33,653 nt of DNA, taken from positions 1 to 33,653 of the forward strand of contig JANYBS010000137.1 in assembly GCA_025360715.1 (NCBI GenBank). The letters are read 5' to 3'. Origin of the DNA: Candidatus Eiseniibacteriota bacterium (GTDB lineage Bacteria; Eisenbacteria; RBG-16-71-46). The notes under the pieces are model-generated. The model searched no databases and had not been told where the DNA came from. It was given only the letters and a program-made list of their open reading frames with translations. Below, piece after piece: positions 18,745 through 21,429 of the stretch. Within the stretch, counting starts at the first letter, position 1, and each line of letters begins with the position of its first letter. Both the position numbers and the translations under genes were made by a program.

Positions 18745-20160
18745 CTACGCGCCGCCGAACTTGTGCACGCGAACCGTGTTCGTGGAACCCGTCGTCCCGG
18801 GCGGCGTGCCGGCGACGACGACCACGAAGTCGCCGGGTTCCGCGCGCTGCAGTTGCAACAGCGAGCGATCGACCTGCGACACCATCTCGTCGGTGTGATT
18901 CACCCGCGGCACCACGAACGTCTCGATGCCCCACTGCAGCGCGAGTTGGCTGCGAACCGCCGGGTGGGAGGTGAACGCCAGGAGCGCGATCGGATGACGA
19001 TGGCTCGACACGCGCCGCGCCGAAGCACCGGACTCCGTGAACGCCACGAGCGCGCGCGCGCGTGTGTCGGCAGCGATGCGCACGGCTGCCGCGGAGATCG
19101 CGTCACCGCGCGACTCGGGCCGCGTGGTCACATCGGGCAGGTGTGAGAGTCCCTGCGCCTCGGCGGCGACGATGATGCGCGCCATGGTCTCGACCGTCTC
19201 GATGGGGTAGGCGCCCACGCTCGTCTCGCCGCTCAGCATGAGCGCATCGGCGCCATCGAGCACGGCGTTGGCCACATCGGAGGCCTCGGCGCGCGTGGGC
19301 CGCGAGTGCGTGATCATGGATTCGAGCATCTGCGTGGCTACGATCACCGGTTTGGCCAGGTCGCGCGCCAGGCGCACGGCGCGCTTCTGCACGAGCGGCA
19401 CCTGCTCGAGCGGGATCTCCACGCCCAGGTCGCCGCGCGCGACCATCGCGCCATCGAACGCGCGCAGGATCGCTTCGAGCCGTTCGACTGCTTCGGGCTT
19501 CTCGATCTTGGCGATCACCGGCAGGCGGCCGCCGCTCTCGTCCATGATCGCGTGCACCTCGCGGATGTCATCGGGCGAGCGCACGAACGAGAGCGCGATG
19601 AAGTCCACGCGCAACTGCAGCGCGTAGCGCAGGTCTTCGCGGTCCTTCTCGCTCATCGACGGCGCGCTCACGCGCACGCCGGGGAGGTTGATGCCCTTGT
19701 GGTTCGAGATCTTCCCACCTTCGAGGACCGTGCACCGGACCTTCACGCCATCGGTGGCCTCCACGCGCAGGCGCACATTGCCATCGTCGATCAGCACGTT
19801 GTCGCCAACGCTCACGTCGGTGGCCAGGGCCGCGTACGTCGTGGACGCGAGGTTCACATCGCCGGGCGCGGGCAGCGTGGTGATCGTGAAGGTCTGGCCA
19901 GCCTGCAGGACCACGGAGCCTTCCGCGAATGTGGCCAGGCGGATCTTGGGACCCTGCAGGTCGACCAGGATCCCCACCGCGCGGCCGGCCTCGTCGGAGG
20001 CTTCGCGCACCAGGCGGTAGACCTCGGCGTGATCCTCGCGCGCGCCGTGCGAGAAGTTGAGCCGCGCCACGTCCATGCCCGCTTTGACCAGCGCGGCGAT
20101 GGCAGGCTTGGTACTGGTGGCCGGTCCCAGCGTGCAGACGATCTTCGCGCGACGGTTCAT
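18745..20160 (-). CDS. pyk: pyruvate kinase
   Basis: 471 residues, normal for the bacterial enzyme. It transfers phosphate from phosphoenolpyruvate to ADP as the last step of glycolysis. Clear blocks are the start RAKIVCTLGPATST, MDVARLNFSHG, LQGPKIRLA, the B-domain region, SEKDREDLRYAL, DFIALSFVRSPDD, IAKIEKPEAVE (catalytic Lys), VARGDLGVEIPLEQVP, PVIVATQMLESM and DGADALMLSGETSVGAYP. The start has GGAG about 12 nt upstream. It converges on the histidine kinase gene with only 22 bp between stops and no terminator in the gap. It lies 52 bp downstream of tRNA-His on the same strand, so it may share the tRNA transcript. Confidence 0.97.
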   Translation of the reverse strand: MNRRAKIVCTLGPATSTKPAIAALVKAGMDVARLNFSHGAREDHAEVYRLVREASDEAGRAVGILVDLQGPKIRLATFAEGSVVLQAGQTFTITTLPAPGDVNLASTTYAALATDVSVGDNVLIDDGNVRLRVEATDGVKVRCTVLEGGKISNHKGINLPGVRVSAPSMSEKDREDLRYALQLRVDFIALSFVRSPDDIREVHAIMDESGGRLPVIAKIEKPEAVERLEAILRAFDGAMVARGDLGVEIPLEQVPLVQKRAVRLARDLAKPVIVATQMLESMITHSRPTRAEASDVANAVLDGADALMLSGETSVGAYPIETVETMARIIVAAEAQGLSHLPDVTTRPESRGDAISAAAVRIAADTRARALVAFTESGASARRVSSHRHPIALLAFTSHPAVRSQLALQWGIETFVVPRVNHTDEMVSQVDRSLLQLQRAEPGDFVVVVAGTPPGTTGSTNTVRVHKFGGA

Positions 20161-20212
20161 GCGTTTCGGGCGCTCCAGTTCGGGACCGCTGCTTGTCTAC
20201 CCGGGGCTAGGA

Positions 20213-20288
20213 TGGGGTGAGTGACGGGGTTCGAACCCGCGACCCTCGGGACCACAACCCGATGCTCTGCCAGCTGAGCTACACCCAC
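20213..20288 (-). tRNA. tRNA-His (anticodon GTG)
   Basis: A 76-nt cloverleaf with encoded CCA (TGG at 20213-20215 on the + strand). The acceptor GTGGGTG pairs with CACTCAC (one G-U). The anticodon loop is TTGTGGT, with GTG at 20255-20253. The base before position 1 is G (complement of C20289) and the discriminator is C, giving the G-1:C73 pair typical of tRNA-His. Confidence 0.95.
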
Positions 20289-20326
20289 CACCAACCTGGA
20301 CCCGGATGACGCCCGAAGCGCCACTC

Positions 20327-20403
20327 TGGTGCGCCTGGGAGGACTCGAACCTCCGGCCGACGGATTAGAAATCCGTTGCTCTGTCCACCTGAGCTACAGG
20401 CGC
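20327..20403 (-). tRNA. tRNA-Arg (anticodon TCT)
   Basis: A 77-nt cloverleaf with encoded CCA. The acceptor GCGCCTG pairs with CAGGCGC. The anticodon stem ACGGA/TCCGT holds loop TTTCTAA, giving anticodon TCT (reads AGA/AGG). The mature 5' end at 20403 is one nucleotide from the base of the long hairpin at 20405-20530. Confidence 0.95.
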
Positions 20404-20404
20404 T

Positions 20405-20530
20405 GTCGGTCGCGAGATTCGCCCGGTGGACTGCGTCATCGGGGTCGCACCGTGCTCAGCGTATCTCTCGATACGCTTCCGCGCGCTGCTCCGCCCGATT
20501 CCTTGCCACCGAACGAATCTCGCGACCGAC
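20405..20530 (-). ncRNA. 126-nt long hairpin abutting the 5' end of tRNA-Arg
   Basis: Arms 20405-20429 and 20506-20530 are complementary over 25 positions: 17 Watson-Crick pairs, two positions that are C/A mismatches as + strand RNA but G-U pairs as - strand RNA, then 6 more Watson-Crick pairs. Inside are ATCGGG/CCCGAT (20438-20443 with 20494-20499) and an apical 8-bp stem AGCGTATC/GATACGCT. On the minus strand the apical loop is GAGA, a GNRA tetraloop. Wobble pairs and tetraloop both indicate a minus-strand RNA, the same strand as the tRNA. I find none of the conserved motifs of SRP RNA or RNase P RNA, and the size does not fit 6S RNA. It may be a tRNA leader element, an independent small RNA, or a small inverted-repeat element. 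Confidence 0.55.
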
Positions 20531-20589
20531 GCGAGCGCGTTCGCGGGTTCCGACGTCTACGGCTAGGCGACTACCTTGGCGTGGGTCTC

Positions 20590-20689
20590 GGTGTCGCTTT
20601 GCGACACCATCGGACGGGCCGGGGTGGCTACCTTTGCCGAGAACGGCAGAATCTGCGGGTACTTCTTTGGTAACGCCCACGGAATGGGC
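20590..20689 (-). repeat. three consecutive small hairpins between tRNA-Pro and tRNA-Arg
   Basis: Within 100 bp there are GGTGTCGC/GCGACACC (20590-20597 with 20601-20608, 3-nt loop), TGCCG/CGGCA (20635-20639 with 20644-20648) and GCCCA/TGGGC (20675-20679 with 20685-20689). The last lies 5 nt after the 3' end of tRNA-Pro and could slow transcription, though no T tract follows. Confidence 0.45.
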
Positions 20690-20693
20690 AAGA

Positions 20694-20770
<77 letters not shown>

Positions 20771-20799
20771 ATGGAACTGGGTGGCGAATCAGGGGCGGG

Positions 20800-20828
20800 A
20801 CAATAAAGAAGGGTCTGAGCGGCGTCAA
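20800..20828 (-). promoter_or_regulatory. promoter of the tRNA-Pro/Arg/His cluster
   Basis: On the minus strand TTGACG (20828-20823), a 17-bp spacer and TATTGT (20805-20800), about 30 nt before the 5' end of tRNA-Pro. Spacing and the -35 hexamer match the tRNA-Leu promoter. Confidence 0.65.
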
Positions 20829-20853
20829 ACGCGAGTCAGGATGGAGTGAAGGC

Positions 20854-20882
20854 TTGGGTTCGGGCGGCTCTGGCCGTATGCT
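20854..20882 (+). promoter_or_regulatory. promoter of ssb
   Basis: TTGGGT (20854-20859), a 17-bp spacer and TATGCT (20877-20882), with the predicted start about 65 nt before the ssb ATG. It is back-to-back with the tRNA promoter; the two -35 boxes are about 25 bp apart. Confidence 0.5.
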
Positions 20883-20955
20883 GCGCTCATCGAATGCGTT
20901 GTGACGGAGTCGGTCCCCATCGGGCCCCCGCGGTTCTTATCAGGAGTATTCCCAA

Positions 20956-21429
20956 ATGAGCGTGAACAAGGTGATGTTGCTGGGCCATCTGGGCCAGGAT
21001 CCGGAGGTTCGCTACACGCAGGGCGGCCTCACGATCGCGAACCTGCGCATCGCGACGAGCGAGCGGCGGCCGGACGGCAATGGTGGCTGGAAGAAGGAGA
21101 CCGAGTGGCACACGGTCGTCGTCTTCGGCAAGCGCGCCGACGTCGTGAAGCAATACATGACCAAGGGCAGCGAGGTGTTCATCGAAGGCTCGTTGCGCAC
21201 CCGCAAGTGGCAGGATAAGCAGGGCCAGACGCGTTACAGCACCGAGATCGTCGCCAACGACTTCAGCTTCGTCGGCGGCCGCGGTGGCAGTGGCGGCGGC
21301 GGTGGTGCGGCGGCCGGTGGCGGCGGTGGTGGCTTCAACCGCGAGGACATGGGCGCGCCGGTGCCGGCAGGTGATGATAACTTCCCGGCCGAGTTCGGCA
21401 ACGGCCCGGACGACGACATCCCGTTTTGA
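20956..21429 (+). CDS. ssb: single-stranded DNA-binding protein
   Basis: 157 residues. It coats single-stranded DNA in replication, recombination and repair and recruits partner enzymes through its C-terminal tip. The OB-fold occupies residues 1-110: VNKVMLLGHLGQDPEVRYTQGG, IATSERRPDGNGGWKKETEWHTVVVFGKRADV, then GSEVFIEGSLRTRKWQDKQGQ. A glycine-rich linker (about residues 110-130) follows, and the acidic tip ends DDDIPF, the canonical partner-binding peptide. AGGAG lies about 10 nt before the ATG. It stands upstream of ssrA on the same strand with no obvious terminator between, so read-through into the tmRNA region is possible. Confidence 0.97.
   Translation: MSVNKVMLLGHLGQDPEVRYTQGGLTIANLRIATSERRPDGNGGWKKETEWHTVVVFGKRADVVKQYMTKGSEVFIEGSLRTRKWQDKQGQTRYSTEIVANDFSFVGGRGGSGGGGGAAAGGGGGGFNREDMGAPVPAGDDNFPAEFGNGPDDDIPF

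Follow-up and report, generated by a model that had tools for sequence, protein, structure and literature searches.

The ERIC sequence is an imperfect palindrome of ~127 nt, which is non-autonomous, intergenic and transcribed, and it influences transcript stability (PMC2229807). REP, REPIN and BIME sequences are small interspersed mobile palindromes that contain mismatches (PMC3116915, PMC3733652). In Neisseria transcripts, the hairpins of Correia elements bind RNase III, and some are cut by this enzyme (PMC2649163).

The hairpin described here is found in a stretch of 33,653 nucleotides of a Candidatus Eiseniibacteriota genome (contig JANYBS010000137.1), termed the window. A single nucleotide (position 20404) separates it from the tRNA-Arg gene. 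The long hairpin upstream of tRNA-Arg is real. A preliminary description, made from the letters alone, had reported a near-perfect 126-nt hairpin one nucleotide before this gene, and both the sequence and the folds bear this out, as does the fold for the 25-position stem with only two non-Watson-Crick positions. Watson-Crick pairs make up 23 of the 25 outer pairs, and the remaining two read U-G in the minus-strand RNA and C-A in the plus-strand RNA. The minus-strand RNA folds at -99.6 kcal/mol (z = -9.2), and none of 200 shuffles folds as well; the plus-strand RNA folds at -87.3 kcal/mol (z = -7.9), with no shuffle as stable; as single-stranded DNA the hairpin gives z = -8.8. The positions of its parts and of the neighbouring genes are shown in Table 1.

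Table 1. Parts of the hairpin and neighbouring features in the window.
Feature	Position	Strand	Basis or remark
Whole imperfect hairpin, 126 nt	20405..20530	minus	sequence, folding, window-wide loop scan
Outer stem 5' arm, 25 positions	20506..20530	minus	fold and orthologue covariation
Outer stem 3' arm	20405..20429	minus	fold and orthologue covariation
Distal internal loop 5' side, AAGG, 26-27 nt before apical stem	20501..20504	minus	loop scans
Distal internal loop 3' side, ACGCAG, 21 nt after apical stem	20431..20436	minus	loop scans
50-nt core, source of covariance model R1	20443..20492	minus	
Apical internal loop 5' side, GGA (GNA in relatives)	20478..20480	minus	
Apical internal loop 3' side, GA	20456..20457	minus	
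Apical stem, 8 bp, AGCGTATC/GATACGCT, loop GAGA	20458..20477	minus	fold
tRNA-Arg(UCU)	20327..20403	minus	directly downstream of hairpin
tRNA-His(GUG)	20213..20288	minus	
tRNA-Pro(UGG)	20694..20770	minus	upstream gene of presumed transcript
Promoter-like site, upstream of tRNA-Pro	20800..20828	minus	consensus match only

Along the minus strand, tRNA-Pro is followed by the hairpin, tRNA-Arg, tRNA-His, and then an open reading frame which, as its translation reads, we take to be pyruvate kinase. The promoter-like match upstream of tRNA-Pro is the only one within positions 20150-20960, and neither a terminator-like site nor a U-tract was found in the tRNA-Pro/tRNA-Arg spacer. A place for the hairpin inside a tRNA-Pro/Arg/His transcript is thus plausible, in line with the earlier view that it is made as RNA with the tRNA. 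A role as transcription terminator or attenuator in the tRNA-Pro/tRNA-Arg spacer is very improbable; the element is a strong hairpin in an intergenic position, but it lacks the T run that follows the G+C-rich stem of an intrinsic terminator, and tRNA-Arg begins after one nucleotide. The terminator reading was rejected on the lack of a terminator-like site.

Hairpins with the same core are present at the orthologous place in two other species of the genus (genomes G003 and G004), where they also end one nucleotide before tRNA-Arg. Among these three orthologues 93% of the cells in the outer stem are paired, and 13 of the 25 outer pairs have changed on both sides, which is reached by none of 500 shuffles. 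The compensatory changes that the preliminary description looked for at the orthologous tRNA-Arg are therefore present, and in number. In G003 the hairpin is present as two tandem copies; this duplication (G003:C15:183542-183706; L004/L013) has a 115-nt period, and the right outer arm is lost from the first copy. The remaining two genomes of the genus, G001 and G002, display different, shorter hairpins at this place, so that some hairpin abuts tRNA-Arg in all five. The tRNA-Arg locus was recovered in 15 of the 20 genomes of the family; other genera mostly have short spacers here, and a hairpin of this kind is absent from most of them. The element is dispensable at tRNA-Arg, since two of the five genus members have other hairpins and most other genera have none of this kind.

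The 50-nt core was used as a covariance model (R1). Strong matches were obtained in six genomes of the family, one in each, with two in G003, and the weaker matches are a MITE family. In the window genome this family has six near-identical copies of ~182 bp (181-183 bp) with ends TAGCCCGGACTATTCATGA, and a seventh that is slightly diverged. These relatives have the properties of MITEs, i.e. terminal inverted repeats, a length of less than 200 bp, no gene, and multiple copies in the genome. The window hairpin itself is single-copy by blastn; its arms are complementary, but it is without the TAGCCCGGACTATTCATGA ends. At its flanks (20404/20531) neither TA nor a longer duplication is visible, and the sister genomes carry other hairpins, so there is no clean empty site for comparison. 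Covariation was counted separately for the tRNA type (10 of 26 pairs) and the MITE type (12 of 31 pairs), with 0-1 of 500 shuffles in each case, because mixed MAFFT alignments placed compensating gaps in the stems. The tRNA-Arg hairpin belongs to a class of MITE-like palindromes. This is close to the transposon-derived inverted repeat that the preliminary description had set against its own reading.

Two further copies in the window genome (C96:2249-2332 and C152:3737-3841) are internally deleted to 84 and 105 bp, and both ends are kept. The G004 genome has more than 100 MITE ends of the form TAGCCCGGA..ATTCATGA; those interiors that were read (L159-L162, L168) contain related hairpins with a partly closed distal loop. 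No transposon bearing MITE ends was seen among the end matches listed, where pairs are ~84-220 bp apart.

The feature common to these hairpins is a pair of internal loops. Loop 1 lies beside the apical stem and is formed by GNA (5' side) and GA (3' side). Loop 2 is distal and has [AG]AGG on the 5' side and ACG[CA]NG on the 3' side (AAGG/ACGCAG in the window copy). The distance of loop 2 from the apical stem (5'/3') is 25-27/19-24 nt in a long class and 15-17/11 nt in a short class, and the two classes differ by one helical turn. A scan of the window for this architecture gave the tRNA-Arg hairpin site as the sole match. A pattern that specifies the loops and leaves all stems open recovers the known elements as well as new ones with other apical stems (e.g. 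in G042 and G052). It yielded 106 matches in 19 genomes, against 34 for the reversed control; in the window genome there were 13 matches, of which 7 are true elements, against none for the control. The elements of G042 and G003, which were found by other routes, keep a spacing of 26/22.

The apical loop is not part of this architecture. The minus strand of the window copy has the apex AGCGUAUC-GAGA-GAUACGCU and the plus strand has UCUC, so a GNRA tetraloop is present on the minus strand only, as had been described; the strand argument drawn from it fails, since the relatives have GGAT, GAGT, GTAG, CCAA, TCAA and 3-nt loops. A conserved GNRA tetraloop as a family feature was rejected for this reason. 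The loops and their spacing display selection-like conservation. Fixed loops and spacing on freely changing paired stems suggest that the folded shape is recognised by something in the cell.

A 29-nt core pattern (CGNARNCGTRTCNNNNGAYACGNYGAGSA) was found at 52 loci in 84,980 GTDB genomes, where ~1 would be expected by chance (our estimate). The carriers include Eisenbacteria, one MAG with ~10 copies, Uhrbacteria (~6), Burkholderiaceae/Piscinibacter, Gemmatimonadetes, Planctomycetota and Nitrospira. Piscinibacter, which is cultivable, carries elements of the short class. Most of the loci lie within long hairpins that also have the distal loop, although seven matches (L062, L076, L084, L095, L098, L112 and L113) are without it and some of these are probably due to chance. 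Loop 1 positions form part of the search pattern, and their conservation among the matches is partly by construction; loop 2 and the spacing are not in the pattern. The MITEs that contain the core have terminal repeats of at least six kinds. The element is not isolated: its core is also present in MITEs elsewhere in the window genome and in other phyla. Two pattern matches were found in viral contigs, both without the distal loop, and the phage and plasmid collections gave no match. A scan of Rfam, at the gathering threshold and at E-values up to 1, gave no family (the best was a chance match to a miRNA, E = 0.28), in agreement with the earlier reading, which had recognised none.

Several of these elements are found next to stable-RNA genes. 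In G005 and G014, tRNA-Gln has an element of the class directly at its 3' end, in antisense orientation. In a Planctomycetota MAG a single element (L106:1411-1439), with a loop spacing of 27/21, lies directly at the 5' end of tRNA-Trp (1281-1356). Two Gemmatimonadetes MAGs (L060, L094) have a hairpin with the same loops directly upstream of 23S rRNA, with the core ~50 nt before the start; the 23S rRNA match was run on one of the two loci. A rough estimate of ours is that less than 0.2 stable-RNA neighbours would be expected by chance among ~45 independent sites. Most of the multi-copy elements are away from tRNAs. A strong core match (L018:821-870) was also seen in the S10 ribosomal protein operon of G011, between rpsJ and rplC.

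The reading that we favour, tentatively and with a little less than even confidence, is that of a MITE-derived folded hairpin kept in a tRNA transcript, in which the two loops serve as a scaffold and the whole acts as a processing or insulating element, probably of an RNase III type. The element would be a single-copy descendant of a MITE-like palindrome that became fixed between tRNA-Pro and tRNA-Arg in this Eisenbacteria genus and was kept folded. It would most likely be transcribed with the tRNA operon; an action at the RNA level is suggested by its position in the tRNA transcript and by the stable-RNA neighbours of its relatives. The two internal loops, separated by one or two turns of the helix, would form a recognition scaffold on a variable double helix, and the helix may process or insulate the two pre-tRNAs that it separates. 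The helix would probably be an RNase III-type substrate in which the loops control the cutting register. The register of RNase III can be set by features such as asymmetric internal loops at helical-turn intervals. The enzyme is proposed by analogy, because the loop spacing is of this kind and because the Neisseria MITE hairpins bind RNase III and in some cases are cut by it (PMC2649163). The 25-bp helix extends to position -2 and leaves almost no single-stranded leader; a first cut away from the RNase P site, before RNase P release, would therefore be at least as likely.

An inert MITE remnant, with arms held complementary by quasi-palindrome template switching or gene conversion and loops alike through recent ancestry, is in our estimate unlikely, though it deserves serious weight. 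In its favour, both the genome and the family are rich in MITE copies and in derivatives with internal deletions, and sister species lack the tRNA-Arg element or have another hairpin in its place. The complementary arms are no proof of selection, since template switching or gene conversion can keep palindromes complementary. The invariant mismatched loops are the stronger argument for selection: conversion from arm to arm would erase mismatched loops first, yet it is the loops that are invariant, and both partners are altered in 13 of 25 outer pairs. In addition, the loops and spacing recur across phyla in elements that have different ends and different stems.

The folded single DNA strand may instead be the functional form, as a transposase or recombinase site like REP/REPIN or the integron attC, in which the mismatched loops would specify strand and position. 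The fold exceeds shuffles about equally as DNA, the elements are mobile, and fixed loops with one-turn steps suit protein recognition of DNA as well as of RNA. This is improbable all the same, since the MITEs have at least six different terminal repeats, which makes a single common enzyme unlikely, no attC-type or REP-type core is seen by eye, and no end pair of transposon length is present among the end matches listed. A discrete small RNA, freed by RNase P at tRNA-Arg as first proposed and acting in trans, is quite improbable. The place of the hairpin one nucleotide before tRNA-Arg and its very stable minus-strand fold would suit such an RNA; the apical loop, however, is variable, and RNase P release cannot be the mechanism common to the class, because the related tRNA-Gln elements are 3' of the gene and antisense and most elements are away from tRNAs.

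Palindromes of this sort and palindromic MITEs are already known; what is new is the common architecture and the place beside stable-RNA genes. No loop architecture common to MITEs of different phyla, or including ERIC, was found in the literature searched, which covered few subscription journals and is weak evidence of novelty.

Of the known systems, the leader and spacer hairpins of polycistronic tRNA and rRNA transcripts are similar in that a hairpin abuts tRNA-Arg in all five genomes of the genus, but the core of the window hairpin also occurs as a mobile element. The tRNA and rRNA places would be cases of an element kept as part of a stable-RNA transcript. REP and REPIN units are 20-40 bp long and have GTAG or CGTC tags, whereas the class described here is one hairpin of 80-190 nt with two defined loops. 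The Correia (NEMIS, CREE) element of Neisseria is likewise a MITE with a long hairpin and has CAAGGCG and GCAACGC stretches in its two arms, but its outer ends are 24-26-bp repeats (TATAGTGGATTAAC...), unlike any found here. As a member of the class it was rejected by its spacing, and no place was found in 147 kb of Correia-bearing contigs (prophage-like viral contigs). Correia is the source of the RNase III data, and its failure to show the loop architecture counts against an RNase III-type explanation.

The closest likeness in loops is to ERIC (IRU, RU-1). In the pgk-fbaA copy of E. coli K-12, tandem GA adjoins the apical stem, AAGG precedes this stem by 28 nt and ACGCAG follows it at 21 nt. 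On both strands of 300 kb of K-12 there are 8042 hairpins of at least 6 bp, 76 with loop 1 and 7-9 with loop 2; both loops occur together at one place only, the pgk-fbaA ERIC, and nowhere in shuffled sequence. ERIC thus has the two loops by a definition that is ours and not that of the ERIC literature, and the match is not blind, as the ranges of the scan were set after ERIC had been inspected. The same scan of ~0.6 Mb of other sequence gave nothing outside known elements. ERIC differs from the window class in its 6-bp apical stem, in a GA/GA rather than GNA/GA loop, and in its ends, and by inspection the ERIC consensus and the window hairpin have no common stretch beyond the loops. A cross-phylum class of mobile palindromes that includes ERIC, with GNA/GA and AAGG/ACGCNG loops one or two turns apart that are read by a conserved cellular factor, is possible but somewhat doubtful. 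Such a factor, if present, would explain why unrelated transposon ends have the same hairpin and why the hairpin persists beside tRNA and rRNA genes. ERIC and similar palindromes have been known for more than 30 years and, to our knowledge, no explanation of their shape is agreed on; if the same loops at helical-turn steps are common to unrelated MITEs across phyla, the shape becomes directly testable.
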